Shown piece after piece: positions 14,800 to 63,800 of a stretch of DNA of 64,000 bases. The number at the start of each line of letters is the position of its first letter. The stretch's first letter is position 1. Source of the stretch: Gigantopelta aegis (lineage: Eukaryota; Mollusca; Gastropoda; Neomphalida; Peltospiridae); the NCBI RefSeq assembly GCF_016097555.1, contig NC_054706.1, positions 47,512,660 through 47,576,659 of the forward strand, written 5' to 3'. The notes under the pieces are model-generated. The model had not been told where the DNA came from. It made no database searches and saw only the letters and a program-made list of their open reading frames with translations. A program made the position numbers and the translations under genes.

Positions 14800-15040
14800 T
14801 CATTTCATTTCAACTTATTTTCGTGCTTATATCCAATTACGGTTCAAGCACGCTGTCCTTGGCACACATCTCAGCTATCTGGGCTGTCTGTCCAGGACAG
14901 TGGGTTAGTTGTTTACTTGGTTAGTGCTTAGTGAAAGAGAAGAGGGTGTAGTGGTCTTACATCTACCGATTGAGTCATTAAAACTCACTCTGGGTGGGAA
15001 CCGGTACCGGGCTGCAAACCCTGTACCTACCAGCCTTATG
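14800..15040 (+). mobile_element. Second SINE-like repeat family, copy 1
   Basis: Contains ATCCAATTACGGTTCAAGCA, CTGTCCAGGACAGTGGGTTA, CTACCGATTGAGTCATTAAA and GGGCTGCAAACCCTGTACCT. The same sequence occurs at 56845-57010 and, inverted, at 16388-16530. It leads directly into the 117-bp array. Confidence 0.7.
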
Positions 15041-17266: not shown

Positions 17267-18746
17267 TCTTCAAAAGAAGAAACGCAAAACCACATTGTCG
17301 TAACATTTGGAGAATTGATTTAATTATTGAATGGTGAGTCCGATAATTACCAAATGTTGCACGATTGTTCACAATTCACTCTAGTCCATTGTGAGTAAGT
17401 GATAGGACACACCACCAAGGTCAAGGTCATCTGGAGTCAATACTGGGTGTGGCCTCCGCGTGTGTTGACAACTGCCTGGCCCCGCCTGCCCATTGAAGCA
17501 ACCAGAGTACGGATGACGTCCCGGGGGATGGTGGCCCACTCGGCCTGCAAGGCTGCTGCCAGCTCGGGCAGGGTCTGGGGCTGTGGAGGCGTCGGTCCAA
17601 CTCGTCCCATAGATGCTCAATTGGGTTCAAATCCGGTGATATCGATGGCCAAGGAAGGACATTAATGTTGTTGTTCTGTAGGAAAGCCGTTGTGAGACGT
17701 GCTGTGTGAGGCCTGGCGTTGTCATGTTGGAACACTGCATTGGCGTTGGCCATAACTGGAACGATGTGTGGCCGGAGGATCTGGTCAATGTAGCCCTGTG
17801 CATTCAGGTTGCCCTGCACGTGGACCAGGTCAGTTCTGCCAGTGTGTGAGATGGCTGCCCACACCATGACACTACCCCCGCCGAATCTGTCCACTTCCTG
17901 CACGCAGTTTGCCGCATAACGTTCACCACGACGCCTATACACGCGACATCTTCCATCATGACGTCGGAGCAGAAATCGGGACTCGTCACTGAACCACACC
18001 TGTCTCCATCGCAGTTGAGGCCATTGTCGATGAATCTGACACCACTGCAGTCGGAGTCGACGGTGCTGTGGTGTTAAGATGACACCTCGAACTGGACGTC
18101 TGGCACGAATTCCTACCTCACGTAGGCGGTTCCGTACGGTCTGGTCGGATATCCTGCGCAAACCTGGTATTGCTGCGGCTGTGGAGGTGGCAGTAGTCAA
18201 TCGTTCCCGAAGGTGGCGTACCCGGATATAGCGGTCCTGCCCGGGGGTAGTGACCTGTGGTCGACTGGATCTAGGCAGGTCACGTGTTGATCCATGTTGC
18301 TGGTAACGGTCCCACAGTCTGGAGATGGTGCTTGGGGACACATGGAATGCCCTGGCAACGGCCGTTCTGGATTCGCCTGCGTCTAGTCGGCCGATGGCAT
18401 TGTTTCTCTGCAGTTCACTGAGACGTGGCATGTCCTGGATTGTCAACTGTCAGCCAGATACAGAGGCCAGGCAAGCGAACACCCTGCACTTTTATACTGT
18501 CGGTGTTCATGTTGCACGTGCAGACAACGCACGTGCAGTGGTGACATGGTTTGCACGTGGCTGCGTTTTTGCGAATATTCACATTTTGGAACTTTATTGT
18601 ACAGTAGCTGCGTTTTATCGAATGTAACCGTGGGAATGTGTTTGGGACATGCAATGACCTTATATTCACAAAGCATGAACCGGTAGGAAACATAAAATCG
18701 GAGTTATAACCCATTTGTACCCTTTAGCGTTTCTTTTTTTGAAGAG
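17266..18746 (-). mobile_element. Tc1/mariner element 1 (1481 bp), TA target site
   Basis: The ends are inverted: CTCTTCAAAAGAAGAAACGC at the left and the same with one substitution at the right, each bordered by TA (17264-17265, 18747-18748). It sits inside a long TA microsatellite. It carries a nearly complete transposase on the minus strand. GC content is much higher than the flanks, which marks it as an invader. Confidence 0.93.
17437..18446 (-). pseudogene. Tc1-family transposase, one frameshift (element 1)
   Basis: Cut-and-paste DNA transposase of the Tc1 DD34E group. The ORF from 18446 (or the Met at 18431) shows an N-terminal helix-turn-helix (about residues 10-50, RTAVARAFHVSPSTISRLW), a second HTH (about 97-125, ISDQTVRNRLREVGIRARRP) and the DDE core: D154 in WFSDESRFLL, GGGS at 189-192, D242 in HDNARPH, E277 in PDLNPIEHLWDEL, with exactly 34 residues between D242 and E277. 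Just after DELDRRL (about 17575-17590) the frame slips. The correct C-terminus (ALQAEWATIP, then RGGHTQY) continues in another frame to a TGA at 17437-17439. With this single visible lesion the copy is young but probably inactive. Confidence 0.9.
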
Positions 18747-40050: not shown

Positions 40051-40337
40051 TGGCCCATGGGTGTAATGTTTTGAATGGGTTTCACTGCATAGTGAAAAGT
40101 AGATCTACAGGTATAATACATGGTTAATAAAGGACAATAGTAACATTATTTCGACATTTAGTTATTTTTGATAGGCTCAAATTGATTGACATAGGTTATT
40201 TTCACAGGCACCACAATTGTTTATTTTTTTTAATTCAGACCTGCGTTTTTGTGCCTAAGTAGTATTATGACTTGTGTGTGTATATATATATATATATATA
40301 TAATATAATTATATATTATTTTATTTTTAATTTTCAG

Positions 40338-40440
40338 ATTTTCTCAGCTATGTAAACAACACATCTGTATCTTGATCCGGACTGACCAGAAGAAAGAAAC
40401 CTGTTGTGGCAATACTCTCTGTAATCAAAACGATTCCAAC
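40338..40440 (+). other. 5' leader of the MFSD6-like exon
   Basis: A T-rich tract ending TTTTCAG at 40331-40337 looks like a splice acceptor. The sequence from 40338 to the ATG at 40441 is then leader, or the end of a coding stretch begun in an upstream exon, since it has no stop in the coding frame. A (TA)n tract lies just before the acceptor. Confidence 0.5.
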
Positions 40441-42354
40441 ATGGAAACAGTAAATATATCACGGTCTATATTAATATGCAATGTCTTCCAGTTCTTCTTT
40501 GCATCATCCAAAGCCTGCCTTTTACCGTTTTTGACTCTGTTCTTCCGTTTGATGGGACTCAATGCCGTGGAGACAGGAATTATCATAGCTGCCAAAACAC
40601 TTACGGGATTTGTGTGGGCTCCCATTTGGGCTCGTTGTGCAATAGCTTACAATAAACGAAGAATTGTATTGATATTTTCTCTGATGGTCATGGCAGCGAC
40701 CTATTTTACCATGACTATCGTTTACAGTCATGTTTCAAACAATCAGTTTTCTTGCAACAAAAGTTTTCACAGTGGAGACGGTGTGTTAGGTACTACAGTA
40801 AATAAGTCTGGTGGAAACAATAGTTATGGCACAAACAGTGTCACAATGTCTAGTAAAATCCAACCTACCGGTACCTTTATCACCATGCCAGTGACTAACG
40901 AAACCATTTACAATACTGCACAAGCAGTAAGTAACATATCAAAATTATCTACAACTTCCATTCCTACAAGCTCGCTAATGCCAACAAGTCCTTTTCAACA
41001 ATCAAAGCTTAAAAAGTTATTTTCGATTGTTTCTCAACTTAATTTATCTAGGGAAGATAAGCAGGAGATATTGAAAAGCTTTCAGTCTTATAAAGAAGGC
41101 AAAATGAGTTTAAAAGACGTGATAAACATGGTTGGTCGATTCCTTCCTAAAAGCAGGCTGCACACCAGAGACATCAGTGGAATTTGGAATGACTTACAAA
41201 CAGGGCTAAATGAAGAAGAAGAAGACCATCTAAAACGTTCTGAGATGAACTCACTTCAGAAGCGATTCTACCTGGGTTCGTGGTCGGACGTCAAGGACCG
41301 GGTGAAGAAGCTGATGAACGGACTGAAGGAGAAGGAACTGGAACTGTTTCTCATTGTCCTGCTGCTCGTGGTCCTTGGGGAATTCCTCAGTTGTCCCGTG
41401 GAGAAGGTCGCCGATGACGCGTGGTTCGACTTCTTGGACCGCATTGACGACCTAGAGAAATACGGCAAACAGAGGCTGTCGGGATCCATGGCCTTCATCC
41501 TGATTCCAGTCATCATAACCCTGGTGGTGGACTACACTGACTGCATTCTGCCATACAACATCCACCACTTCTTGATCCACATCTACCTGTTTATTGCCTT
41601 TATCGTTGTCACCATGATCGTGGCCATCTTCTACCCTATTCCCAGCGTGGACAAGCAGAAGTATTCCAGCAAGTTTGGCCAGGGCATGAGGATCGTCTGC
41701 TGCGACTGCAGTAGTGTTCTCTATGTCCTCACTCTCCTGCTGCTGGGAATGGTGTACGCATCTTTCAACAACTTCCTCTTCTGGTTGATCCAAGATCTGG
41801 GCGGGAAGGAGGTCACGATGGGTCTGTGCGTGACGATCGCAACGTTGGCGGAAATCCCCATGCTTCTCTTCAGCGGGAAGATGATCAGGAAGCTGGGCAA
41901 TGCTGGTGTCATCTCCATCTCTCTGGTGGCCATGGCTCTGCGCATGCTCTACTACTCCTTCCTGTGGAACCCGTGGGTGGTGATTCCCATTGAGCTGATG
42001 CATGCGTTCACTCACACGGCTATGTGGTATGCTGTCCTCAGCTTCGACGATTACAACGTGGGACCTGCTGTCGACCGAAGCATCCGTTCCATATTGTCAT
42101 CCATTTACTTTGGCATCGGCTTTTCGGTGGGTAGTGTCGTTTCGGGGGTTGTTTGGCACATCTTTGGTAGCTCCGTTCTGTACTGGTCAGCCAGTGTCCT
42201 GTGTGCTGTTTGGAGCTTTCTGTTTTTCGTCATCCAGAAGTGTCTTCCGAAGAAAGAAAGAATAAGATACATCCGGCTTCTTCCTGGCGAAGATGGAATG
42301 GACTCTGGTGGTGATGATGAAGACTGGCTGGAGATGGCGCTGAAAGAACAGTAG
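40441..42354 (+). CDS. MFSD6-like major facilitator transporter, 637 aa
   Basis: Predicted multi-pass membrane transporter of the MFSD6 (MFS_1-like) branch of the major facilitator superfamily; the substrate is not established from sequence. Residues 9-36 and 44-66 form the first two hydrophobic segments, including the family-like stretch ETGIIIAAKTLTGFVWAPIW, and segment 3 is at about 74-96. A long hydrophilic loop (about 97-298) is Ser/Thr/Asn-rich at first, with NNS, NET, NIS and NLS sequons, then charged. Hydrophobic segments resume at about 299-317, 349-366, 378-398, 424-449, 459-478, 487-508, 511-535, 548-571 and 577-599. The tail is acidic (GDDEDWLEMALKEQ). The start is the first ATG after an acceptor at 40336-40337 and has A at -3 and G at +4. 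The frame is open back to the acceptor, so an upstream coding exon cannot be excluded. GC and codon use rise sharply near residue 272. Family call is from remembered similarity, good at fold level and moderate at subfamily level. Confidence 0.88.
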   Translation: METVNISRSILICNVFQFFFASSKACLLPFLTLFFRLMGLNAVETGIIIAAKTLTGFVWAPIWARCAIAYNKRRIVLIFSLMVMAATYFTMTIVYSHVSNNQFSCNKSFHSGDGVLGTTVNKSGGNNSYGTNSVTMSSKIQPTGTFITMPVTNETIYNTAQAVSNISKLSTTSIPTSSLMPTSPFQQSKLKKLFSIVSQLNLSREDKQEILKSFQSYKEGKMSLKDVINMVGRFLPKSRLHTRDISGIWNDLQTGLNEEEEDHLKRSEMNSLQKRFYLGSWSDVKDRVKKLMNGLKEKELELFLIVLLLVVLGEFLSCPVEKVADDAWFDFLDRIDDLEKYGKQRLSGSMAFILIPVIITLVVDYTDCILPYNIHHFLIHIYLFIAFIVVTMIVAIFYPIPSVDKQKYSSKFGQGMRIVCCDCSSVLYVLTLLLLGMVYASFNNFLFWLIQDLGGKEVTMGLCVTIATLAEIPMLLFSGKMIRKLGNAGVISISLVAMALRMLYYSFLWNPWVVIPIELMHAFTHTAMWYAVLSFDDYNVGPAVDRSIRSILSSIYFGIGFSVGSVVSGVVWHIFGSSVLYWSASVLCAVWSFLFFVIQKCLPKKERIRYIRLLPGEDGMDSGGDDEDWLEMALKEQ

Positions 42355-43344: not shown

Positions 43345-43615
43345 GAAATTATTATTTTTATTTTATTAGCAGTATAGTACCCAGTCATAATAATGATGGT
43401 AGGGTAAATTTTGTGAGGTAGATGATAAATACAAAATTTGTTCATTTTCATTTTATTAGCAGAATATAGTTCCCTTCTAATGATGGCAGGGTAAATTTTG
43501 TGAGGTAGGTGATAAATACCAAATTTGTTTATTTTCATTTTATTAGCAGAATATAGTTCCCTTCTAATGATGGCAGGGTAAATTTTGTGAGATAGGTGAT
43601 TAATACCAAATTTGT
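43345..43615. repeat. 87-90-bp tandem repeat, 3 copies
   Basis: Units contain ATTTTATTAGCAGAATATAG and GGTAAATTTTGTGAGGTAG, at 43359, 43449 and 43536. A repetitive ORF on the minus strand (YHLPHKIYPAIIRRELYSAN) has no independent support. Confidence 0.9.
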
Positions 43616-43671
43616 TCATTTATCTAGTCATTGAATTTTATTCTGGCTATTTTATATTTACTACAGTCATC

Positions 43672-45188
43672 GGGTCTAGCTCTGGGTCAGCAGAAAATTT
43701 CACCAAATTATCAATCATACTTCAAAAACTGCAGAAACCCATTTATTTTCCAACAAACCATAACTTATTTCATGAAATTATTTCACCAAATTATCAATCC
43801 TACTTCAAAAACTGCAGAAACCCAGTTATTTTCCAACAAACCATAACTTATTTCATGAAATTATTTCACCAAGTTATCAATCCTACTTCAAAAACTGCAG
43901 AAACCCGGTTATTTTCCAACAAACCATAACTTATTTCATGAAATTATTTCACCAAGTTATCAATCCTACTTCAAAAACTGCAGAAACCCATTTATTTTCC
44001 AACAAACCATAACTTATTTCATGAAATTATTTCACCAAGTTATCAATCCTACTTCAAAAACTGCAGAAACCCGGTTATTTTCCAACAAACCATAACTTAT
44101 TTCATGAAATTATTTCACCAAATTATCAATCCTACTTCAAAAACTGCAGAAACCCGGTTATTTTCCAACAAACCATAACTTATTTCATGAAATTATTTCA
44201 CCAAGTTATCAATCCTACTTCAAGAACTGCAGAAACCCGGTTATTTTCCAACAAACCATAACTTATTTCATGAAATTATTTCACCAAGTCATCAATCCTA
44301 CTTCAAAAACTGCAGAAACCCGGTTATTTTCCAACAAACCATAACTTATTTCATGAAATTATTTCACCAAATCATCAATCATACTCCAAAAACTGCAGAA
44401 ACCCAGTTATTTTCCAACAAACCATAACTTATTTCATGAAATTATTTCACCAAGTTATCAATCCTACTTCAAAAACTGCAGAAACCCGGTTATTTTCCAA
44501 CAAACCATAACTTATTTCATGAAATTATTTCACCAAGTTATCAATCCTACTTCAAAAACTGCAGAAACCCGGTTATTTTCCAACAAACCATAACTTATTT
44601 CATGAAATTATTTCACCAATTTATCAATCCTACTTCAAAAACTGCAGAAACCCGGTTATTTTCCAACAAACCATAACTTATTTCATGAAATTATTTCACC
44701 AAGTTATCAATCCTACTTCAAAAACTGCAGAAACCCATTTATTTTCCAACAAACCATAACTTATTTCATGAAATTATTTCACCAAGTCATCAATCCTACT
44801 TCAAAAACTGCAGAAACCCGGTTATTTTCCAACAAACCATAACTTATTTCATGAAATTATTTCACCAAATCATCAATCATACTCCAAAAACTGCAGAAAC
44901 CCAGTTATTTTCCAACAAACCATAACTTATTTCATGAAATTATTTCACCAAGTTATCAATCCTACTTCAAAAACTGCAGAAACCCGGTTATTTTCCAACA
45001 AACCATAACTTATTTCATGAAATTATTTCACCAAATTATCAATCCTACTTCAAAAACTGCAGAAACCCAGTTATTTTCCAACAAACCATAACTTATTTCA
45101 TGAAATTATTTCACCAAATTAAACTAAAATTCAACAGTTGTTCTTGAAATACGCAGTTGGCGAATTTGGCGAGTGCCAAAGCTGGCCC
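43672..45188. mobile_element. Dispersed element with its core expanded 17-fold
   Basis: Left end GGGTCTAGCTCTGGGTCAGC and right end, inverted, GGGCCAGCTTTGGCACTCGC enclose the 83-bp array. The same ends and a single-unit core occur, inverted, at 59214-59403. Confidence 0.82.
43698..45108. repeat. 83-bp tandem array, 17 copies
   Basis: Exact 83-bp spacing of TTTCACCAARTTATCAATCC from 43698 to 45109. Unit blocks are ACTTCAAAAACTGCAGAAAC, CCGGTTATTTTCCAACAAAC and CATAACTTATTTCATGAAAT. Copies differ at only a few sites (CCGG/CCAG/CCAT; AAG/AAA). One pair of neighbouring variants (AAATCATCAATCATACTCC) recurs six units apart, a sign of block duplication. Confidence 0.97.
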
Positions 45189-45189
45189 T

Positions 45190-46333
45190 TAGTCATAATA
45201 TTGAAATTTTAAGTTCTCTATATGGGTTTTTCTTATGTACCACATATACAATTTGTCTGTATTTAATGGAAAATGTTAAGATGATATATATATATAAGTA
45301 TATTTCAGTTCCTTTAATTCCTTATTTTTGCAGCTTTCTTTGTTGTGTAAAGTGCTGTGATTAACAGGTAACATATTTCTTGCAATGCTGAATCCAGACT
45401 AATACTATTGTTTTCACTTCGGCAAATTTTGTTTGAAAATTTCTAAAGAGTAAAGAGTTAGCGTTTTATTAACCAAATAAAATGCAACAAAATTGTGTAA
45501 GCGTCAATGCGATTTCGCACATATTTGTCAATACTGTGCATATACACAGTACCTATTCCATATATGCAATTTTGCATGCATTTAGTACACTAAAATAAGT
45601 CTGTTGATGGGTGATTTTTCTGTTCAGGTTTTCCAATGTGGTGATTCATAACGTAAAGTATTTACTAGTGGCTTAAAAATGCATTTCAACAATGTCAAGT
45701 TTTATATAGTAAATATGGAGTCTGAAAAAACACATTTCGATGTGTGGAAAAGTGAACAGTAAATTTATGCGGAATCCCATTAATGGAAAGCAGGCTTTAT
45801 ATTATAATTATTTTATAATAGTGCTACTTTTTTTTACTGAATTCAGCTTCTTTTTAAAATTAATATTGCATGCCCAACTTAGTAAAAACTATTTCAGGGT
45901 CTCTAAATAGACCGATCTATATATAGACTGATCTCTATAGAAAAACATGACGTGAAATATTTTTCATTATTAACAGATTGTACTGTTAAGTTATCCATGA
46001 CAAACTGCTGATATTACATAATTATATAGTTGTATGCTCAATAGGATGTGCCTTGATATAATCACAAACTGTATTTTTTGCAATATTGAGAAAATATTTT
46101 ATTAATACTTTTGCTGGTGATCGTGTTAACATTTCTTATTTCTAATATCTACTTGAAATGTTCTAATTTTGTGTTGGGTGTGTTTTGTTTATTTTGATTT
46201 ATTATTTATTTATTTATTTTTTTATTTGGAAAAAGGTTACGTGTGTTAATTATTATCATGGTAGACCTATTCAAGAGAATTTGCAAATATATTTTGAAAT
46301 GAAATATAACCTTTTATTTATCTACCATTACTT

Positions 46334-46398
<65 letters not shown>

Positions 46399-48159
46399 CA
46401 AGATATATAGAGAGAGAACGAGAGGGGTCATACATTTGCCTCAAAGTTGTTTCAATTTTATATATGAATAGAATTATAATAAGGGTGTTTTATATTACTT
46501 ACCGTAGTTGTGTATTATGTCTCTTATAAATGTCATCACTTCAAATATTGTCAGTTAAAACAGTTTCATTGTTTGGATCTGCAAAACCAATAACTGGTCT
46601 TATGTAGATTCTTTAAGCTGAGAGGAAAGAAAGTTGTGATTTGGCAAATTAAAGAAATACAAATTGGTTTGTTTTAGCTACACCCAATGTAATCGTATTA
46701 ATTCTTAAATATTTGCTAAATTGTACTTCCATTGATGTTTGATGGTTTGGTTCTCAATATATCTTAAATTGTGCTCATTAAATGCTGCTCATTTCATAAG
46801 GTGACAATTATTGTTCAATATTACTTTTTACAGTACTGTTTTTGGCTCGCCTTTACAAAGTTAAAAAACATGATATAGGTATTACTTTTTTGACGGGAGC
46901 AGTGGCGTCAGTGTTTGCACCAAAAGTTTAATGTTCAAGTTTCACGCTTAGATGAGTTTATCACAAACTATATGTCCTAGGTCAGTGAAGCGTGGTTTAC
47001 AGATACACCTATAGGTGTTCATCACAGTGCACAGAAATATTTTATAGTGGGGAAGAAATTTAAATTTGTGGAATTTTTGTTTTTGTATTATGTAAGAGTG
47101 CTATCCTGATACATTACTTTCAAAAAATATTGGCCTGATTAATCTTCAATTAGTTTATTGTTACTCATGTTCATGGGACATAGCTCAACATACTGGGTCA
47201 TGATTAGTATATACGTTGGGGGGGGGGGGTCAGGGTGTCCGTTATGGGCAGGAGGCCATTATATAGAGGTGCCCGTTAGACCAAGTTCGACTCTATTCAT
47301 TTTTATACTTTCTATTATTGATTAAACAGTGGCAAGGTTTGTTTTAGTGGTAGAGCACTTTGCCTGTGTTGTAAGATCAGTTTTCCCATCTGTGAGTAAA
47401 CTAATTCCATACCATGCAGAGTTCTACAGTGTGATACATCAAAGCCATGTTACATGTACATGTTAGGCCGTCCTTTGAAAACTCTATGAGATCAGACGGT
47501 TTCTTCTTTCATTCTTTAGACACAGTGTCACTTTAGTTTTTAAAATATATTAGACATATATTGTATTTTTATACTGTCACTTGGATCATCAGTATTTTGC
47601 CTGTAGTAATTGTTGTCAAGAGTTATGTCCCTTGTGTTCAGTAACTTCCATCATAACTTGATTTACCACATATAAATAGCTGGAAAGTGGATATTGAAAA
47701 ACCTACATGATTTGTGATAAAATCAAAACGAATATCCTATGGCAATGTTGTTTTCTCTCATACAGTAGGCCAGCCGTACACACTTACCATGATGTTTGTG
47801 ATACATACATTATTTCCACCTAGTTGTAATCTGTTGTGGCATATTATATGTATGTATCGTTTTACTTTTTACTTATGTTGTATTATTTTCTGGATATTTT
47901 TGAACTATAAACCAAGATATTAACTGTTAAAGCTTATTTTCTATATTGTTGTGTTTATATTTTACTCATAGTTTAATATAATTCATATTTATTGTGCTAA
48001 AAAATTAAAATACCAGAAATGATAACATGGAGTGGATTTTTGGGAAGCGGTATCTAAGAAGAAAACATAAAATGAAATTAAAGGTGCACAAAATATGTTT
48101 GAATGTGTGAACACAAAATGTACAGTGTACTTGTTCAGTACCCCCTATATCCCATACAC

Positions 48160-48200
<41 letters not shown>

Positions 48201-50220
48201 ACTGGTTAGATATAATAGTACGTACTTCAGAAAAATTCTCCAGGCATTTGTTTTTAATATCACCACCACCTCACCCAGACCCAACACTACCATCACCATC
48301 TGTTATTTCTGGAATATAGTTTATGTTGAATACAATAGTATTAGTGAAATCCTATTAGTTTCTACTTCAGTTGACTGTTGTTAATTATTCTTTAGTTATT
48401 ATTTTAAAATATTTTCTTTACTCTTGTTGACAGATTTATATTCATTGTATTTCTTTGTTTGTTTATTTTTTTATTATCAAATGAATATTTATAGTACACA
48501 TAAGTATTTTGCATTCCATGTATTTGAGTTGTGAACATGTGATACAGTACTGAAATAATTTGTTTAGGCTTGTTTACCTTTAATATTGTTTACACCTTGA
48601 AACTTAAAATATTTTGATGTCGATGACTGACAACCAGAATTGTTCATGTCCACCTTTTGTGAAAATTAGAAAACACATTTCATTTTCTTCTTCTTATGGT
48701 GGTCTTTTTTTTTTTTTTTTTTTTTTTTTTTTCTCCAGGGGATATATTTAGCAGGGGTGATGTATAGCTATATAACTTGAATACATTAATAAATTGCTTG
48801 ATTTTAAGATTTTACAGAAATTTTAAAACATCAATACTACATGTTAGTCTTGTTTTGGGGGTTTTGTTTTTTGGACATAACCAGTTTTGGTTTTTAGTTC
48901 TCGATATTGATAGTTTTGATGGAGTTGAAATTTTATACTCTTTTGCCACCATAGAATTTAACAGCACATACCTTGACACAAATATCATTCCTAGGCTAAA
49001 AACTCAGTTGGAAAAATAAAGAATCCCTTCCATTCTCGTATTATCAGAACTGACTTCCAAATCATGTTATTTTATATTTTATCAGCACCCTTTGATAAAA
49101 GTATAAAAATCCTCAGCAAGCCTTGGATTTCATACTTTTATCAACTCGTGCTGATAAATTATGATATCACAAGACACTCTGGGAGTATCTTCTATATAAT
49201 AATAATAATATATGTAAATAATTGAATTATATATGCATATTATATTCATAACAGTTATTTATGTTATCACTGCAAGCAATGTTTTCTTGCAGTACTGTAT
49301 TTGTTTTTTTTGTTTTTTTTGCTGTTGGGGAATAACATTAGTACTTCTGAATTGGACTTTATACATTCCTGTTGTATGGAAAGGTGCGTTCTCAGTGTGG
49401 TTTTAGTAATTGTTTGTAACATACAATCAACAATATCACAACTGTATCAGTTTTATTTGCATACAAGTACAATAATGTACGGTACAACACAGCCAAATCA
49501 TGTCATGTTATTTGTATAAAAAACAAACAACTGTGTTAACACTGTTATGAGAACAGTTTATGCTGAAGTCTCTATTCTCCATGCTGCAATATTGATTACT
49601 AAATTTTGTTTTCACTATCAACAAATATTTATGCATTTAACATAACATTTTAGTTGGGTTTTGGTGATATTTTTATTATTGTAATGGAATAACATTTTTA
49701 TCTTTTTGATCAGTGGTTTTTGTGAATTGTATGTGACATAAATAGGTATATTTACTTTAATACCATTGATTCAGAAAGAGCTGTGAATGTTTATTTTGTT
49801 GATACTGTTTTTTGTTTTTTATTTTAAAGAAAAAACATTTCGATTCCTTTTCTGTTTGTTGTAATTGCAAGGGGCAGGATAATAATTAGACTTTATCACA
49901 ATGGTTTACCATTCTGCTTTATTTACTTACATACTTATCAATATTAATATATTTTTCTGGTCTAACTTGATATGATAAAGTGATTGTTTTGACATTGTTA
50001 TTTTTAATGATTATGCATAATATCTTCATAGTGTATACATTGACATAGATATTTTAATTGCCAGTAGGGGTATATTTTGATATGTCTTCCTCAGTAAATA
50101 AAAACTGTATTACACAAGGGAAATAACCACTTGTGTTTAACATATATGTTTGAGTAGCCTGTATGGTAGGACCAGGTTTCCTGTATTTCTCCTTTGACTA
50201 AGCATTAAAATAACCATTTT
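45190..50220 (+). other. SINE-free AT-rich stretch, possible long 3' UTR
   Basis: No gene or SINE. Holds (GA)n at 46337-46397, poly-A at 48163-48197, poly-T at 48706-48733, and many AATAAA-like signals (for example 45476, 50098). T exceeds A on the plus strand in much of it. Confidence 0.45.
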
Positions 50221-50223
50221 TAA

Positions 50224-50667
50224 AGTTCTAGACCCTAGTTTTTAAAACACTACGGCATAATTTTCACTAATAGAGCCCGTTTTAACAATTACTGTTATTT
50301 TCTTGTTTGAAATAAATATTTTAAGTGTCTGTGGTCATCCTGATGTTTCTAATGCACGAAATGCATTTTTCATAATTCTAAAAATGCACATACTACTAAG
50401 AAGTAACTGTTATTGAGATGAGCTGTAGGCCATTTTAGAGGGTATTTCCCCATTTCAAACTCTTGTTTCTCTCTATGGTAACTTTAGTCAGATGTGTTAC
50501 AGGTTGGTAGATTAGGCCCCCAAAAAATAATATGTGTGTTTCAGGTTTCATCTCTGGAAAAAATAGGTAGGAACTTTTTTTTTTTTTCTTTTTTTTTTTA
50601 AACCGTGTTCTTGACATACTGCATATATCCTGTCTGCAAAAATCGTGGTAGATGTTGAGGTGGGGAG

Positions 50668-50708
<41 letters not shown>

Positions 50709-50822
50709 GTAGTCAAATGTATTAGGGTCGGTCGGGAAACGGAAACACACAATTTTCTTTTTTTTTACGCCATAACCAAACTTAGCGCCTATTTTCACGG
50801 GTTCAAACTGGGGTCTGCAACT
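50224..50822. mobile_element. MITE, TTAA target site, with poly-T-bearing insert
   Basis: AGTTCTAGACCCTAGTTTTT at the left, inverted AGTTGCAGACCCCAGTTTGA at the right, TTAA at both borders (50220-50223, 50823-50826). The right half holds an extra 240 bp with T-runs at 50576-50600 and 50670-50707 and GGGTCGGTCGGGAAACGG, probably another repeat. Confidence 0.78.
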
Positions 50823-51647
50823 TTAAGTAAGACATCAAATATATCATTAAATAATTAAATAAATATTTCTTTTCTTTCATTTCATAATTCAGTTTTGTTT
50901 TTGGGTCACATTATTATGTCAGAAACATAAGGCGGGTTTTCCTGTTTGGCAGGTATACAGTTGTATTTACATTACTTGAGTGCCAGTTTTTATTTTCACT
51001 TACTGCTGTTACAATCAGACATGCTTAGTCATTGCCTTAGGTCATTCCATTATCATAACTTTTTATTTGTGTTCTTTGCTTCATTTGTAACAAAGTATTA
51101 AAAATATCCAGGCTCTGAGCTAATAAGACCTTTACTCTCGTGTGTCTCTTTGTTTGTTTGGCTCTGTTATTTGTTCATGGATTTGCTTGCCTACATTTTC
51201 TTTGATTTGATATGTAATGTCTCAAACCTGGTTTTCATACAGTTAAAATTCCTAATCCAAAACCTTTGTAGGTCTGTGGTATGATTATAAAAGGAGATCA
51301 GGGTTTGAAACCTAAATGTTTCAACCAAGAAATCGTCGCTACGTCCATGCAAATTATTTCCAGTTTCAGTCTTGGGAGTCCAGACTGTAAAGTTTCACAA
51401 GCCATGTGCCTAGGTATAAAACTCTGTGATCAGATTTTGGTGTATTCACTAAATATAAAGCAACTGCATTAATCTCATTTTGAGATCTTATAAACAATGT
51501 ATCATGATTGACAATGCTATTTGTTAGGTACATTGTAGTTGTTCCTTCCATGCTCGTATTACCAGAATTGCTAAAGGGCTTAAAAGGATTATGCAATGTT
51601 GCTAAATTAAGAGAGCTGATGAGAGCTATGTGAATTAAGACCCCAGG

Positions 51648-52188
51648 GCCCCGTTCCACGAAGCAATCTTAGCACTACTATCATCGTAAATACCTACCAT
51701 CGTGACCTTAATTTTTTTCTATGATCACCAGCCCGTTCAACGACGCGGCATAGCTTACTTTTGTCATAAATTTCAGTGATAATGTACAATTGATATGAGG
51801 CAGTTGTAAGCCACTAACGTAGCTGTCAAATGGCAGTTAGATGATGATTTCATCATTTTTTAAGAAGGATACCAACTTTTTGTGTGAAAATGGTGAAACT
51901 CTGCGTTTGATGAAAAACAGTCTAGGCCATACAACATTCACACAAAAATACAGGTGATAACTGTCATGTCTTATGCATATGGCAATTATCGCTTAGCAGA
52001 TAAACTGACAAAGTTACTTCATGGATGTCCAATACCAATGAATATATCCAAGATGTTCCAAAAAGACGGTAATCAATTTATTATTTATTTATTTTATCAG
52101 CTGTAAAGTTTACGGTGCCAGTTGTAAAACTTACCTTGAGTCACTACAATTAACCGTAGCTACAGTTGTTTCGTGGAACGGGGCCCAG
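51648..52188. mobile_element. 540-bp palindromic element, GGGCCCCGTTCCACGAA ends
   Basis: GGGCCCCGTTCCACGAAGCA at the left and, inverted, GGGCCCCGTTCCACGAAACA at the right. Sub-ends AATCTTAGCAC and AACTGTAGCTAC diverge. Related to the middle element at 61419-61857. Confidence 0.8.
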
Positions 52189-52189
52189 A

Positions 52190-54120
52190 TATATTAGTAT
52201 TGTTTTTACTAGTGCTGTGGGATTGCTGGTTACGCTGGTCATAATGATACATGTTATTCCTTTTATGTATAGTCTATGCATTTGCATATTTTCTTTACAG
52301 TTTATGCAATAATTTGCATATGTATATTGACTGCCAGTGTTTTGACGTATATTCCTCATTTACATGAGTAACATGTTTATTGTATGTTCTAATTTTGTAT
52401 TCTTAAAAAATAAAATATGCATGTAGGTAATGGTAGATTTCGGTATGCAAAGATTTCATAGAAAATTTATATCAGTGAAGCAAAACATACATGTGGGACC
52501 ACTGTTGGTTCTTACTTTTCCTTTTGTCTTCCATTTACAGATAAAAGTAAAACACAGTGAAACCTGTTACAGCAGCCATCTTGGGATGTTCAAGGTTTTG
52601 TCAATTATGTCGTTAAACTGTTATTTGGCACCATTCCTTCCTTTTATATTTTATTATATATAAACATACATCGTACATGTATATTTAAATATATACATAA
52701 TGTAAGTTTACATATATTTTTATAATCAGATGAAGTTAGACATGGAAGTGTCTGGGTAGCTCACAAATTTATTTTTATTGATCAAATTGTCAACTGATTT
52801 AATATTCGGAATCATTCACAAATTGTGGTCAGTGGTATTTGCTATGCTCAAGAAATTCATTCCAACCTTGTCAACCAGTTATTTTTTAAGCATATAATTT
52901 ACATTATTTAAACATTTTCACTTTTGTAAAACATTATTGGCTGAATTTATAAAGCTTGTTTTTGACTTACACGTGTGTACTACACTTATTTATAACATCT
53001 ATGTTTAAAAAAAAACATGCTTTGTTAAACTGGCTCTTTATTTTTTTTACTTATCAAACCATGGGTTCAAAAATACATTTGGCTACTTCATAAAAGATGG
53101 CTACTTAATATAGGTCATTATTAGTTTTTTTACTCTATGTAGGGTTCGAACCTTGTAAAAAAAATATGGTAGCCCTAAAAATAATATTGCATGTTGTCAA
53201 ATTATGATAAGTGAACCACGAGCAAGATTTTAATGTGGAATATAAACATTAATAGTGGCTCATATGTTATAGCTCTAAAGAAGATAATATTATTTGGCCG
53301 ACTAACGCCATTATTTTTTAATAATTAAGTCACCCAAACAGGACATTGGTCGCATTTGGCTACCTGGCCACATGCCATTTTGATTCCTGCTATAGAATAG
53401 TAAGGTGACGGTGACCTTAAGACAGGTGGCTGCTTGAGCAGGTTTAATTGTCTCCATTTATGATGTTATCTATGCATTTTATTGCTATCTCTCTTGTATG
53501 AGTGAAGCTAAATGTAGTTAAGTGCCTTGATCACAGAGATATGATATAGCCTGTAGCCATTGTAGTTTATATATATTCATATGCATCCCCTTCAAGATAA
53601 TCAGCTTATTTTCTGGTTGAAATTATTTATACAGTTCTTCCAATCTCAAAGAGGCATAATCTATACTGAGTGATTTTATTTTTTGGTTGTGTTTGTTTAA
53701 TATGAACCACTTTACTTTCTGTTTTATTAGAAATAAAAACATTCCATCCTTTGATTGCTGACTCATTGTTGTGTATTTCAAGCTGAATGTGATATTTTCT
53801 ATTTCTGAAAGGCCATGGTCCGCCCGCAACACTGTACTGTACTTGTAGTTCAGACTTTCTTCCTTAGAGTAGTGAGGTGACAGTGACCTTTTAACACAGG
53901 TGGCTGCTTGAGTAGGTTTAATGTTTGTCCATTTGTGATGATATCTATGCATTTTATTTGTGCGATTTCCCCCATCACAGCAAATTATATCACTATTCAA
54001 AGTTAACTTATGGTGTTTTTTTTCTTTAATAGCCAGAAAGCTATTTTAATGTAGGATTTTCAATAATTTTTATAAAACTTAAATAGTCTTAAAAACAAAC
54101 TTGTCATCTCCTGATATTTG
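52190..54120. other. AT-rich stretch with a duplicated 95-bp block
   Basis: AGGTGGCTGCTTGAGCAGGT (about 53395-53492) and AGGTGGCTGCTTGAGTAGGT (about 53862-53958) belong to two similar blocks, each followed by ATCTATGCATTTTATT. No gene or SINE. Confidence 0.5.
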
Positions 54121-54123
54121 AAG

Positions 54124-54437
54124 AAGTTTGGTTTGTTTAACAACACCACTAGAGCACATTGATTTATTAATCATCAGCTATTGGATGTCAAACATTTGGT
54201 AATTCTGACACGTAGTCATCAGAGGAAATCTGCTACATTTTCTTATGCAGAAAGGGATCTTTTATATGCACTTTTCCAGAGACAGGAAAGCACATACCAC
54301 AGCCTTTGACTAGTTGTGCACTGGATGGAACAAGGAAAAACCCTAATCAGTTGAATGAATCTGCCGAGGTGAATCAATCCTGCGAAACAAGCACCTCAAG
54401 CGAGCACTCAACTGACTGAGCTAAATCACCCCCACCC
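54124..54437 (-). mobile_element. SINE, head H2 with tail B (left arm of inverted pair)
   Basis: Tail TTTGTTTAACAACACCACTA, body GGGATCTTTTATATGCACTT, head GCGAGCACTCAACTGACTGA in reverse. Confidence 0.87.
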
Positions 54438-54494
54438 ACTCCATATTTAAATAAAACTTGGCAAAATATAGTTTTGTTTGGTTTTAACTTTAGT

Positions 54495-54785
54495 TTGGGG
54501 CAGGATCTAGCATACACCTGGGGAGCCTCTGATTGTTCCCGCCCCCCCCCCCCCCCCCCCACCCTGTCCTAATCAGTGCAGCATGAATGGTATATCAAAG
54601 GCTGTGGTATGTGCTCTCCTGTCTGGGAAAGTGCTTTAAAAAGATCCCTTGCTACCAGTAGAACTTTATAGCAGATTTTGTCTCTAAAACAATAAACCGG
54701 TTTTACCAAATGTTTGATATCCAATAGCTGATAATTAATCAATCAATGTGCTCTAGTGGTGTTGTTAAACAAAATAAACTTTTAA
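54495..54785 (+). mobile_element. SINE, H2-like head with tail B (right arm of inverted pair)
   Basis: Head GGGGCAGGATCTAGCATACA, with a C-run of about 20 (54541-54560), body and tail CAATGTGCTCTAGTGGTGTT. Head-to-head with the copy at 54124. Confidence 0.82.
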
Positions 54786-54789
54786 CGTT

Positions 54790-55455
54790 ACTTTATTACA
54801 AAGTTAACCTAAGGAAGTATTTTGAACTCCTAAACATTTGTTACAGATCAAATTTGAACCATAGGACCTACATGTATTTTGTTGTTTTTTCCCTGCTATA
54901 CCTTTTTTCCTTTCTTTTTTCCCATTTACATATTCCCAATTTAGTGTGAAATATCTATGGGCATTAAGTCAATTAAATTTCTGAAATAAAACCCTGATAA
55001 CAATAACATACAATGAAAAGTAAACAAAGCAACATGCATATGCATTATATCAAAACGACAACACCATCTTGGGTTTTCACTGTAAGATAATTGAGTTGGT
55101 TTTTATTGTACCTTTTTGCCATCAACATATTTTGCTGAAAAGATTGTTGTCACTTCAAGAATATCTGATTTCTTGATTTATAGCGAACATTATCTCTGGG
55201 CTATGTTTCAATGTTGGCTGCCATGTGTATCAAGGCCTTACTCCATTGTTTGGTGGAGAAGCCCTTGACATTTGTAAGCCATTTTCATCTGTTAATGATT
55301 TTCATCTAAGTCTTTGACATCAAGGTTTGATCCTCTTGACTTCATTCCTGTATTGAGATTCCAGCAGAGAGGAAATACGTTAGTTCTACGTGTCTTTCAT
55401 TCTTACACAAACTTCAGCAAGGGTCAGTTACGTCAGTAACAAAGTTAAAAGTACT
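54790..55455. other. Non-coding DNA
   Basis: Nothing recognised. Confidence 0.4.
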
Positions 55456-55459
55456 GGGT

Positions 55460-55748
55460 ATGTTTTGTTTAACGACACCACTAGAGCACATTGATTTATT
55501 AATCATCTGCTATTGGATGTCCAACATTTGTTAATTTTTGTACTTGTAGTCTTTTAGGAAACCTATTTTTTTTCCATTAGCAACAATGGATCTTTTGTAT
55601 GCAGGACAGAACATACCATGGCTTTTGATATATCAAAGGCCATGGTTGGGACAGCAAAATGGAGAATGGGTTCACTGAGGTGATTTGATCCTACAACACA
55701 AGAAGCTCGGGCAAGTATTTCACTGACTGAGCTAGATCCTGTCCCCAT
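55460..55748 (-). mobile_element. SINE, H2-like head with tail B
   Basis: Tail TTTGTTTAACGACACCACTA, a shortened body, and a head with GGTTCACTGAGGTGATTTGA and GACTGAGCTAGATCCTGTCC. Confidence 0.8.
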
Positions 55749-55749
55749 T

Positions 55750-56340
55750 GGTACATTATTTCAAAATTTATGATCGTTTTTCATTATATATTTTATGGTT
55801 TTCAAATTTTGTGGTGAGATTTGATTTATCTATTGGTAACGTTTGCCAAAAAATTAATCTGATATTCTGTTGACCCAGATTTAAGGATGTGGCAAAAAAA
55901 TGTCTCGCACATTGAATGGCAACTGTTGGAATTATTTGTATATTTAAAAGATGTTTTAGAAATAAAATGGCTTGGCATGCCTGTGGTTGGTCAAACTGCT
56001 TCAGTTTTCATGCAAGTTTCAAGGAAAACTTTAACTGATAGAAGAATGTGTACAAAGTGGAATTTGTTTCTTGTCTAATCACAGGTAAACAAATATTTTA
56101 TTCAAATTTATTTAGAGCACGGATATTTGTTCTTACACTAGAAGAGTTTATATTAATTTGTGTGCTAAATGATTAAATAAACATAAACATTTCATAATTT
56201 TATTTATATAATGCATGTGATTAAGGGATAAATAGGCTACCGTTCATAAATATTGGTCATAATGTTCCTGGCTTTTTGAACGAAATGAATATACCTGGCC
56301 TGGTGCTTATATAACTTTTAGAGTCAAAACTCTAATAGAA
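55750..56340. other. Non-coding DNA
   Basis: A 63-codon frame at 55887-56078 has no recognised similarity or splice support. Nothing else seen. Confidence 0.4.
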
Positions 56341-56684
56341 AGAAAGAAAGAAATGTTTTATTTAACGTTGCACTCAACACATTTTATTTATGGTTATATG
56401 GCGTCAGACATATGGTTAACGACCACACAGATTTGGAGAGGAAACCCGCTGTCGCCACTACTTGGGCTACTCTTTCCGATTAGCAGCAAGGGATCTTTTA
56501 TTTGCGCTTCCCACAGGCAGGATAGCACAAACCATGGCCTTTGTTGAACCAGTTATGGATCACTGGTCGGTGCAAGTGGTTTACACCTACCCATTGAGCC
56601 TTGCGGAGCACTCACTCAGGGTTTGGAGTCGGTATCTGGATTAAAAATCCCATGCCTCGACTGGGATCCGAACCCAGTACCTAC
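56341..56684 (-). mobile_element. SINE, H3-type body with tail A, 5'-truncated
   Basis: GAAA-rich end at the left, tail A, body, and H3 part to GATCCGAACCCAGTACCTAC. ACTCTAATAG (56328-56337) and GACTAATAG near 56688 may be remnants of a target duplication. Confidence 0.87.
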
Positions 56685-56839
56685 CCTAGACTAATAGAGT
56701 CTGAGACAGTAATGTCATGACAGCACCATACAAATGGTATGTGTGTGATGTCATTTGAGATTGGGTCTGGATTCTTGACTTAAAAGTTCTATAAGCACGG
56801 GCTCTGATGGGACCTTGCATGATATGATATTTCATTTCA

Positions 56840-57010
56840 TTCATTTACAATTATTTTTCATCCTTATATCCAACTGAGGTTCAAGCACACTGTCCTGGGC
56901 ACATCCCATCAGCTATCTGGACTGTCCAGGACAGTGGGTTAGTGAGAGAGAAGCCAGTTAGTGGCCTTGCACCTACCCATTGAGCCATTAAACTTGCTGT
57001 TAAACTGTCT
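56840..57010 (+). mobile_element. Second SINE-like family, copy 3
   Basis: ATCCAACTGAGGTTCAAGCA, GGACTGTCCAGGACAGTGGG, CACCTACCCATTGAGCCATT. A further end piece lies at 57430-57490 (GGTGGAACCGGTACAGG, ACCTACCAGCCTTAAATCCG), separated by the SINE at 57058. Confidence 0.65.
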
Positions 57011-57057
57011 TGGATGTATCCACTGAGACTGACATGCTTGAACCTTCAGTAGATGTA

Positions 57058-57385
57058 GGGCGGGACGTAGTCCAGTGGTAAAGTGTCCGCCAAATGCACG
57101 GTCGGTATGGGATCGATCCCCGTCAGTGGGCCCATTGGGCTATTTCTCGTTCCAGCCAGTGCACCATGACTGGTATACCAAAAGCCGTGGTATGTGCTAT
57201 CCTGTCTGTGGGATGGTGCATATAAAAGATCCCTTGCTGCTAATCGAAAAAGAGTAGCCCAAGAAGTGGCGACAGCGGGTTTCCTCCCTCAATATCTGTG
57301 TGGTCCTTAATCATAAGTCCGACGCCATATAACCGTAAATAAAATGTGTTGAGTGCGTTGTTAAATAAAACATCTCCTTCCTTCC
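57058..57385 (+). mobile_element. SINE, head H1 with tail A, full length
   Basis: Head GGCGGGACGTAGTCCAGTGG, GTATGGGATCGATCCCCGTC; body ATAAAAGATCCCTTGCTGCT; tail to TTAAATAAAACATCTCCTTC. Direct repeat TTCAGTAGATGTA / TTTAGTGGATGTA (57045-57057, 57386-57398) is an imperfect target duplication. The cleanest H1-A copy in the window. Confidence 0.92.
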
Positions 57386-57499
57386 TTTAGTGGATGTACA
57401 CATGTCCAATGATTGATTGATTGATTTATTGATTGCTGTGGGTGGAACCGGTACAGGGAGGTGAACACGGTATACCTACCAGCCTTAAATCCGAAGGAT

Positions 57500-58160
57500 T
57501 GATCACTGTACACCACCCAGGGTGGTAGGCGTGATAGCAATATCGACAAAGTTGTTATATACATAAAGGACAATGCAGAACTCTTTCCAAAGAAAACGAT
57601 TGAAAATGTTGTTTGTGTGGAGTGGCAAGTTGATGTGTGCATGGTTGTACAAGAGAGATTAATATCTAACACAAACTGTTTAGTGGCTAATTTTGCATGT
57701 GTCGGGAGGCTCACATGCCTTATTTAACAGTACAACCAGACACACAGAGAACCAACATCGAATTGCACCATTAAATTTCAATAGAAATACTATTTACTGT
57801 AATGTTTGTTGTTGGTAAATTCCTCCTTGGATACGTCAGCCCTGTGAGAAACTCATCTGGGTGAATGAATAACAGCATGCTAATGTTTTCTCTTGTGTTG
57901 CTCACAGTAAAAGTATAAATGATACTTTCCAGCAAAAGTAATGCATTCTGTGGTCCCATAGTAATCTGAATTAAATGTTCAGCCATTGTGCGTGCTGTAA
58001 CCTCACTGTGTGAATGGTCAATACAGCACAAAATTGAAATTTTGAGTAAAAGTCAGTATCTGTGACATTTGTATTTTTGCACAGTTCTTTACACTGTTTT
58101 TATTTAAATTTTGAATTCTTATATTGATGTTGATCATCACTTTATTTGTTTGCATTACCA
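57500..58160. other. Non-coding DNA
   Basis: ORFs on both strands are unsupported. No repeat recognised. Confidence 0.4.
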
Positions 58161-58164
58161 TAGT

Positions 58165-58256
58165 TTGACACCCAATAGCCGATGTATTTTTCATGCTGGG
58201 GTGTCGTTAAACATTCATTCATTCATTCATTCATTCATTCATTCATTCATTCATTT
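58165..58256 (+). mobile_element. SINE tail C with (ATTC)n end
   Basis: TTTGACACCCAATAGCCGAT, GCTGGGGTGTCGTTAAACAT, then about ten ATTC units (58214-58254). Shares CAATAGCCGATG with tail B but ends differently. Confidence 0.75.
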
Positions 58257-58268
58257 AAATGTTCAGAA

Positions 58269-58423
58269 CGGATCTAGGGGCCCCAGGGGCCCGGCACCCC
58301 CCTAAATTTTACGACAGTTATAATTTTATTATATATTAATTTTCTTTTTTTTTACGACCCCCCTCCAAACCTTCCCCAAAGTTTCCTTGGTATTGTGGCT
58401 CGTGTCACTGGGGCCCCCTGAAT
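58269..58423 (+). mobile_element. GGATCC-end dispersed repeat leading into a tandem array
   Basis: GGATCTAGGGGCCCCAGGGG at the left; CCCCCCTCCAAACCTTCCCC inside; its right end, GGATTTTCTGGATCCGACAC, is the start of the 48-bp array. Matches 22124-22262. Confidence 0.72.
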
Positions 58424-58713
58424 GGATTTTCTGGATCCGACACTAATGTTAGCACCCTCTTGAAGTGCAGTGGATTTTCTGGATCCGACACTAATGTTAG
58501 CACCCTCTTGAAGTGCAGTGGATTTTCTGGATCCGACACTAATGTTAGCACCCTCTTGAAGTGCAGTGTATTTTCTGGATCCGACACTAATGTTAGCACC
58601 CTCTTGAAGTGCAGTGTATTTTCTGGATCCGACACTAATGTTAGCACCCTCTTGAAGTGCAGTGGATTTCTGGATCCGACACTAATGTTAGCACCCTCTT
58701 GAAGTGCAGTGGA
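58424..58713. repeat. 48-bp tandem array, 6 copies
   Basis: Units begin GGATTTTCTGGATCCGACAC and end CTCTTGAAGTGCAGT at exact 48-bp spacing (58424, 58472, 58520, 58568, 58616, 58664), the last shortened by 1 bp. 48 is a multiple of 3, so open frames on both strands are expected and are not genes. Confidence 0.96.
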
Positions 58714-58751
58714 TTGTATAGTTAGGTTAAGAAAAATCTATGGTTATGCTT

Positions 58752-59028
58752 GGGAAGGAAGGAAGTGTTTTATTTAACGACGCACTCGACGCATTTTATT
58801 TACTGTTATATGGCATCAGACATATGGTTAAGGACCACAAAGATATTGAGAGAGGAAACCCACTGTCATCACTTCATGGGCTACTCTTTTCGATTAGCAG
58901 CAAGGGATCTTTTATATGCACCATCCCACAGACAGAATAGTACATACCACGGCCTTTGTTACACCAGTTGTGGAGCACTGGCTGGAATGAGAAATAGCCC
59001 AATGGGTCCACTGATGGTGATTGATCCT
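58752..59028 (-). mobile_element. SINE, head H1 remnant with tail A, 5'-truncated
   Basis: Tail A (TTTATTTAACGACGCACTCG), body, and only the inner edge of the head (GATGGTGATTGATCCTAG). Confidence 0.87.
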
Positions 59029-59213
59029 AGTCACATTATGATGTTAACACGCTGAAAAACTCTATCAACTTTTTTCAGCACATGGAATCGCGTATGTGAA
59101 AAAGGTACTGTGTATATGCACTGTATCAATAAACTCACATGTGGAAGCACATGAAATTGTGTTAATGGAAACGGGGCCTCCTTCTATATGACCATTTAAA
59201 AACATTATTATTA

Positions 59214-59403
59214 GGGCTAGCTCCAACACTTGCCAAATTTGCCAATTGTGAATTGCAGAAACAATTGAATTTTATTTTAATTTTGGCGAAATAATTTAAT
59301 GTAATAATTAATATTTTGTTAGAAAATAAATGGGTTTTTTTTGCAATTTTTTAAAGTTTAATAGATAATTTGGCGAAATTTTCTGCTGACCCAGAACTAA
59401 CCC
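59214..59403. mobile_element. Single-unit relative of the 83-bp array element
   Basis: Inverted relative to 43672-45188. Ends GGGCTAGCTCCAACACTTGC and, at the other side, inverted GGGTTAGTTCTGGGTCAGCA. The core between two TTTCGCC words is about 87 bp and occurs once. Confidence 0.8.
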
Positions 59404-59469
59404 TGATTATATTATTTAATATTTTGGCTTAATATTTATTTTGTTCTTTTTGTACTATCAGATCTTTGT

Positions 59470-59760
59470 TTCTGCTATATTTCTACAGATAAGTGTATAT
59501 AAATGTTTAGTAAATAATAAGTCATCTCGGTGACAATATAATTTTTATTAACAAATTATTTACTTCTTTTTTTGACATATCCTATGCTATACTTCTACAG
59601 ATAAGTGTATATAAATGTTTAGTAAATAATAAGTTATCTTGGTGACAATATAAATAAAACAAATTTAATTATTAATTTTTTTTTTTCATTAAATCATTTA
59701 CTTCTTTTTTTAACATGTACTATGCTATTCTTTTATAGATGAGTATATATGAAAGATAAT
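59470..59760. repeat. Three imperfect tandem copies, 112-138 bp
   Basis: TGCTATATTTCTACAGATAA, TGCTATACTTCTACAGATAA and TGCTATTCTTTTATAGATGA start at 59473, 59585 and 59723. Each of the first two is followed by GTGTATATAAATGTTTAGTA. Just upstream of the putative start of the RRxS gene. Confidence 0.8.
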
Positions 59761-62492: not shown

Positions 62493-63496
62493 TCCATTGT
62501 TCATGGTAGAATAATAATCTTTCATTATATAGGTCTACCGATGTGGGATAAGGTTATTTCATTCCAAGGTCAAGGTACATAATTTACTATCAAGAATTTG
62601 ACAATACCAGCACTGTCAATGATAACAAGTTATGTACTTTTGGGTGGAATATTAAATACATATATATGACATATAAACAAAACCTCTATTCAAAAAGCCA
62701 CCAGCTTAATATATAAAACTTGGCTTGTTGGATCAATTAAACTGCTTTAAAATTTATGGACTGGTCTGGCTTTGAAGCCAAAATTTAATCAATGTGTAAA
62801 GAGTTGTAAATTGGGTTTTGCTGTTTACTCTTATCTATTTTCACAGTCCATTACTTTTTGAGAATACAGTCATGTGCATGTGTAGGTATATAAACTGAAT
62901 ATTTTCATGATAAATTTCCTTGTTGCTAGGCAATGTGAGGGTACTTCAGTTTAAGTGGGTCTTTGAGACACTGAGGGGGTAGAAACTTTAAAAGAAAGAA
63001 AGAAGAAATTAACTGGTATATTCTAAAAGGATTTGTATGGAAAACAGGTAGTTTGAAATATCAGTATCTTGTGAAATGTGTATATAGAGAAAAAGGGTCT
63101 CTATCTTGTTTGGAATTTTTCTTGATATTTGATGATTGACAGTGTTAAAACTAAGTTTTAAAAAGTGATTTAAAGACCATGTGAAGATTCTGAGTGAATA
63201 CTTGAAATATGGGAACTTTAAATGTGACAGTGTTTTATGACAACCTACAGTATAGGCTGGTCAGTTGTATGACCACTAATTTAGTAAAGTTACCCATTAG
63301 CAACATTCTGTTATGTTGTGATAGTTTAATATAACAACATAGTGCACAACTGACATGATGACACAATAACATTGATATAGCCAATGTAAAAGTAATATAA
63401 CTAATATATAAACTGATATGATAACAGTGAAAAACTAAAATGTCAACAGTACAATGAATACAATCAATGTCATTCTGATATAACTAGTGTCATAGT
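62493..63496. other. Intron sequence, nothing recognised
   Basis: No exon with a clear acceptor and open frame was found in this part of the presumed first coding intron. Confidence 0.4.
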
Positions 63497-63800
63497 GATA
63501 TGACTACAGTATAACAGGTAGTATGACTACATATACAGTATAAAGTCATATGACTTCAGTTAAAAATGATATGACTACAGTATAACAGGTAGTATGACTA
63601 CATATACAGTATAAAGTCATATGACTTCAGTTAAAAATGATATGACTACAGTATAACAGGTAGTATGACTACATATACAGTATAAAGTCATATGACTTCA
63701 GTTAAAAATGATATGACTACAGTATAACAGGTAGTATGACTACATATACAGTATAAAGTCATATGACTTCAGTTAAAAATGATATGACTACAGTATAAAG
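63497..63800. repeat. 71-bp tandem array, 4 copies plus a partial
   Basis: Units start GATATGACTACAGTATAACA at 63497, 63568, 63639 and 63710, with a partial at 63781. They contain an internal alternation of ATGACTACA and ATGACTTCA. Copies are essentially identical, so expansion is recent. The flanking 63280-63496 has looser versions of the same words. Confidence 0.94.

Follow-up and report, generated by a model that had tools for sequence, protein, structure and literature searches.

The window, a stretch of 64,000 nucleotides of contig NC_054706.1 of the gastropod Gigantopelta aegis, contains two copies of one short dispersed element, which differ in the number of copies of an internal unit, the core. 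The first carries 17 cores in tandem and occupies positions 43671-45190, and the second carries a single core and is located on the minus strand at 59212-59405. Both elements had been recognized in the initial annotation of this DNA; their extents were corrected by inclusion of the outer dinucleotides. The two loci are organized as follows:

43665..43670, plus strand: left target-site duplication AGTCAT, a perfect 6-bp match to 45191-45196
43671..43697, plus strand: left arm of the array-bearing element with the inverted end CGGGTCTAGCTCTGG..., decayed from CAGGGCTAGCTCTGG, placed by aligning it to the left arms found elsewhere in the family
43698..45108, plus strand: 17 cores, all exactly 83 bp long and all opened by TTTCACC
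45109..45190, plus strand: right bounding word and right arm, which ends with GGCCCTT
45191..45196, plus strand: right target-site duplication AGTCAT, which pairs with 43665-43670
59207..59211, minus strand: target-site duplication ATTAT (ATAAT in element orientation)
59212..59405, minus strand: one-core copy of the same element family
59292..59378, minus strand: single 87-bp core, which starts with its own TTTCGCC (59372-59378); the second word lies at 59285-59291
59406..59410, minus strand: target-site duplication ATTAT

In the array-bearing element, TTTCACC occurs 18 times from 43698 to 45109 and every spacing is exactly 83 bp, which gives the 17 full cores that had been claimed, the eighteenth word being the start of the right arm. 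Tandem Repeats Finder (TRF) reports a period of 83 with 17.2 copies. The units are of nine distinct types, which differ at seven variable sites. AGTCAT is found without mismatch on both flanks, and therefore the whole array lies within one insertion. Units 8-10 are identical to units 14-16 (longest identical run of three, permutation p 0.058); such block copying is compatible with multi-unit exchange, but only suggestive of it, and a clear higher-order pattern was dropped at this p value. A separate 87-bp repeat with 2.7 copies is located directly upstream of the element (43391-43621) and looks, by eye, unrelated to its core.

The one-core element possesses two TTTCGCC words, 87 bp apart on the minus strand of 59214-59403, which enclose its only core, as had been described, and it is flanked by a perfect 5-bp duplication. 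Global alignment of the array core consensus with the single core yielded a score of 62, whereas 2000 shuffles had a mean of -38.6 (s.d. 9.4) and a maximum of -5; the outer arms of both elements also align. Judged by these alignments, the cores are clearly homologous, and the initial proposal that both sites carry the same element withstood the comparison that could have overturned it, namely cores unrelated beyond their bounding words. However, the two copies differ by 0.21 in the core and by 0.20 in the arms, and the one-core copy belongs to another subfamily. The idea that before-like and after-like states stand side by side in the window thus holds for a homologous one-core copy, but this copy is a cousin of the array element and not its direct before-state. 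The cores closest to the window array are found in one-core elements at other loci (L088, 0.035; L086, 0.060; L054, 0.073), and the 17 window cores lie on one side of a branch that separates them from 20 cores of 15 related elements (91/88, short of a star). Subfamily A, which includes the window array, L039, L040, L054 and L081-L089, is distinguished by seven diagnostic sites, all of which are located in the core and none in the arms. A second copy in L008 (at 1094) carries five of these seven sites. A cassette exchange between cores and arms was considered and dropped, since the non-CpG divergence of arms and core is alike in arrays and singles. The end of the one-core element is separated by 68 bp from the start of a tandem array with a period of 112 bp (59473-59685).

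In the genome that holds the window (1.149 Gb), three queries returned 3675, 2318 and 3382 first-look candidates for the family, and 40 of each were scored. The one-core consensus, derived from a profile of 31 one-core matches, comprises 188 bp, or around 190 bp with the outer CA/TG, and therefore leaves no room for a transposase. The inverted ends read CAGGGCTAGCTCTGG, and 13-bp identical inverted ends, GGGCTAGCTCTGG, are found in the consensus; 50 full elements align on CAGGGCTAGCTCTGGG ... GCCAGAGCTAGCCCTG, the ends being decayed in several of them. Outside CA...TG, perfect 5-bp duplications are present in 12 of these 50 elements and perfect 6-bp duplications in seven, compared with 0.32 and 0.18, respectively, expected from re-paired flanks; the 19 elements concerned include seven of 18 multi-core elements and both elements of the window. 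The exact right-end word occurs 632 times in the genome, 323 times on the plus and 309 times on the minus strand. Based on its inverted ends, target-site duplications and dispersal on both strands, the family is a transposable element with an array inside, as had been suggested, and its short length, inverted ends, flanking duplications and high dispersed copy number correspond to a miniature inverted-repeat transposable element (MITE).

The ends of hAT elements often begin with CAGGG or TAGGG, and the family can be likened to a hAT-type MITE by its CAGGGCTAGCTCTGG ends together with duplications of 5-6 bp. Within hAT, target-site duplications of 5 and 6 bp are described as marks of hAT5 and hAT6 in the account given in PMC12730594; the present family has CAGGG-type ends and shows both lengths, mixed in one family. 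The 8-bp hAT duplication was dropped as a candidate, perfect target-site duplications of 7-9 bp being found in none of the 50 full elements. Matches to the hAT dimerisation domain are present in the genome (150 scored of 951 candidates). Helitron-type elements of bivalves possess neither target-site duplications nor terminal inverted repeats; assignment to this type fails, since the family has both. An interpretation as satellite DNA, that is, long arrays without element ends, fails as well, as all 21 arrays inspected are bordered by element arms left and right, with a short right arm in L041, L043 and L058.

Among 53 distinct elements, one core was found in 33, two cores in eight, three in one and four in two elements; five, six, seven, eight and nine cores occur in one element each and 11 cores in two, and the longest arrays contain 17 (the window array) and 19 cores. 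A further element, L090, which was found by word search, has 22 cores, 74-75 bp each; its ends are normal and it is flanked left and right by ATTAA. The ladder of core numbers that an origin of the array inside the element had led one to expect is thus present in a single genome, and the hallmark of tandem-repeat-containing MITEs, an internal unit tandemly repeated to a variable extent within conserved ends, is observed. Eleven additional copies, which were chosen from hit lists because they were likely to be related to the window array and to carry a single core, all have one core. These samples are non-random, one query having contained the array junction and another a one-core element, and the least biased picture of core number is provided by genome-wide counts of exact 21-mers: 277 left-end words and 123 core-core junction words stand beside the right-end words counted above, with 0 for each control. 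The first 100 junction words listed fall into 26 places, and all 12 places inspected are multi-core. A left end may drift to the spelling of the junction, as has happened in one of the two words of L049, and the 14 remaining places, especially those with a lone word, could include such cases. A listed exact junction word was found in the same element for two of the first 100 left-end and two of the first 100 right-end words listed. Since many junctions are inexact, these joint words suggest that multi-core copies probably make up a few per cent of all copies.

Word positions also mark places beyond the sampled elements. At least 16 exact junction words are spread over 2.6 kb at C12:21690532-21693176, and possibly beyond, with mixed spacings such as 75, 117, 159 and 276; this place, known from word positions only, is possibly a larger, higher-order derivative array. 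Four junction words each, with regular spacings of 62 bp and 74 bp, occur at C3:90799700-90799906 and C4:112970332-112970574, both of which are probably arrays that keep the register but have shortened cores.

The one-core consensus contains a 14-bp direct repeat, ATTTCGCCAAATTA, at positions 25 and 108, which corresponds to a spacing of 83 bp; the next longest direct repeat has 8 bp, and the length of 14 bp was matched in 0.15% of 2000 dinucleotide shuffles. In 20 arrays and in L090, the repeated stretch reaches from one copy of ATTTCGCCAAATTA to the next, and all of them share one register. Unit lengths are mostly 82-87 bp, apart from those of L090, and some arrays (e.g., L056 and L057) have a few shorter or longer units. 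A shared register is expected if units are duplicated between short flanking repeats, and duplication of this kind was earlier proposed for minisatellites (as described in PMC6947457). The original suggestion of unequal exchange between short direct repeats is therefore supported with respect to the register set by one repeat, but not in its preference for exchange over slippage or gap repair; all three processes can use such repeats and the present data fit each of them alike.

From these observations, we infer the following order of events. A hAT-like MITE of around 188-190 bp, for which thousands of first-look candidates exist, would insert with one core bounded by two copies of ATTTCGCCAAATTA located 83 bp apart. 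After insertion, misaligned exchange or replication slippage between the copies of the 14-bp repeat would duplicate the core once, and the duplicated units, which misalign easily, would then allow the array to grow, shrink and homogenize in place. The probability that insertion came first and was followed by in-place array growth from the 14-bp repeat, either by misaligned exchange or by slippage, is estimated at roughly 0.76.

The cores within an array are alike: the within-array core difference has a median of 0.025 in 20 arrays (range 0-0.077), mean core distances of 0.109-0.222 separate an array from other elements, and for 119 of 120 cores the nearest neighbour lies in the same array. For these reasons, it is probable that the majority of arrays grew where they now lie. 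In the eight 2-core elements, first cores differ from each other by 0.137, second cores by 0.157 and first from second cores of other loci by 0.146, compared with 0.027 within a locus, and no clear sorting by position was found. The array consensus of L053 carries a 3-bp insertion, which is absent from all other of the 58 aligned rows, and eight of its nine units have 86-87 bp, the remaining one 96 bp. Furthermore, by arms, 14 of 17 multi-core elements count a one-core copy among those closest to them.

Several observations weigh against insertion followed by growth in place. The shared register results partly from selection, because the query that found most arrays contained the junction; the junction word likewise led to the places where its copies are spaced by 62 and 74-75 bp, and L090 is not alone in its 74-75 bp unit, as an end-word spacing of 75 bp occurs at a one-core place on C1. 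By core, a one-core element is the nearest other element for only eight of the 20 arrays. The arm tree is star-like and poorly resolved, with the multi-core elements scattered, and a single multi-core clade is only marginally disfavoured by arms in the approximately unbiased (AU) test (p 0.053 with 17 of 50 rows, 0.07 with 11 of 50). In the core tree, the cores of L039 (four) and L041 (two) are interleaved, which means that some multi-core copies may go back to a common ancestor that was already multi-core, and the cores of L057 differ by 0.077 from each other and by 0.073 from another element. In addition, homogenisation could give the appearance of recent local growth. In the nine arrays of at least five cores, no consistent excess divergence of the edge units was observed, and edge-unit divergence was dropped as proof of unequal exchange, the result being mixed. 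Growth rather than contraction, the direction assumed in the initial annotation, is not established by the comparisons made.

Some of this evidence would also suit a multi-core master element, which transposed as such and gave rise to one-core elements by contraction. This is the best of the alternatives, though an improbable one: besides the interleaving of L039 and L041 and the marginal arm test (p 0.053), one-core copies keep the second word copy, as a contracted array would, and by core the nearest relative is multi-core for 12 of the 20 arrays. However, the cores group by locus and not clearly by array position, the arms place one-core copies next to most multi-core elements, and multi-core copies look rare, because only two of the first 100 left-end words and two of the first 100 right-end words listed share an element with a listed exact junction word.

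Slightly less probable is a gain of cores during transposition, in which repair of the excision gap from the sister chromatid slips between the repeats while the element is still mobile. The word is subterminal, its TCGCCAA part, present at 28 and 111 on the plus strand, is found again in inverted form 17 and 26 from the right end, and hAT transposase domains are present in the genome. Yet a general shuffle test does not mark four occurrences of a single 7-mer as exceptional (P 0.28), and the cores of 2-core elements differ by 2.7% on average, whereas arms differ by 5-7% from the subfamily consensus (non-CpG), which suggests duplication well after insertion. It is similarly doubtful that the array-seeding repeat is a subterminal transposase-binding motif, a candidate role by which array birth would be a built-in by-product of MITE biology; if true, each of the thousands of insertions would be a pre-loaded satellite seed, able to fire independently.

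Capture of a pre-existing satellite unit by the element, a route that available accounts propose for the MITE miDNA4 and for Helitron-borne repeats, is very unlikely here, as most copies seem to be one-core by word counts and L090, the one array inspected of 15 junction-word places new to the sample, lies between the element's ends. An assembly artefact in the array or its copy number, to which exact 83-bp units are liable by collapse or expansion, is hardly credible in view of the variant unit types of the window array and of similar arrays with their own variants at many places.

A single genome offers many, apparently largely independent, array starts from the same defined seed and with known boundaries, in which all copy numbers from 1 to 9 are represented and higher ones reach 22. 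The rates and the direction of array birth could thus be measured at named sites across individuals or sister species, in contrast to satellite DNA whose first steps are lost, which makes such a measurement hard.

Array growth inside a small element is an already recognized route by which satellite-like DNA can be born, and the present case is a clear example. The MITE miDNA4 was reportedly studied by Scalvenzi and Pollet (2014) and Xstir by Hikosaka and Kawahara (2004), and tandem-repeat-containing MITEs of the clam Donax trunculus are said to be the subject of Satovic and Plohl (2013), the likeness being one of title and not of sequence. As described in PMC12628747 and PMC9659126, miDNA4 of Xenopus tropicalis exists as a monomer or a variable array and resembles the present family in the short direct repeats that flank its unit and in array growth inside a MITE, but it is a Tc1/mariner rather than a hAT-like element and capture has been proposed as the origin of its unit. 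Xstir, another Xenopus MITE, is described in PMC12628747 with array and composite forms, like the present family in kind, whereas the mechanism proposed there involves two neighbouring elements. BrickBuilt, a MITE of Porphyromonas gingivalis, carries a 23-nt minisatellite of 1 to 22.8 units, and 11 of its 19 elements are enclosed by portions of a shared leader as well as of a shared tail (PMC4596501); compared by description only, it differs in its bacterial host and 23-nt unit. MITEs whose internal unit occurs either singly or in many copies have thus been described before. Full-text literature searches, made by words and not by sequence, returned no description of the present family, which is, as far as such searches show, a new and unusually clean one.

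Elsewhere in the window, a Tc1-type transposase frame (DDE_3, HTH_Tnp_Tc3_2) is located at 17427-18449 and a long MFS_1_like transporter frame at 40309-42354. Other tandem arrays are found at 15036-15855 (period 117 bp), 58423-58715 (period 48 bp) and 63496-63798 (period 71 bp).

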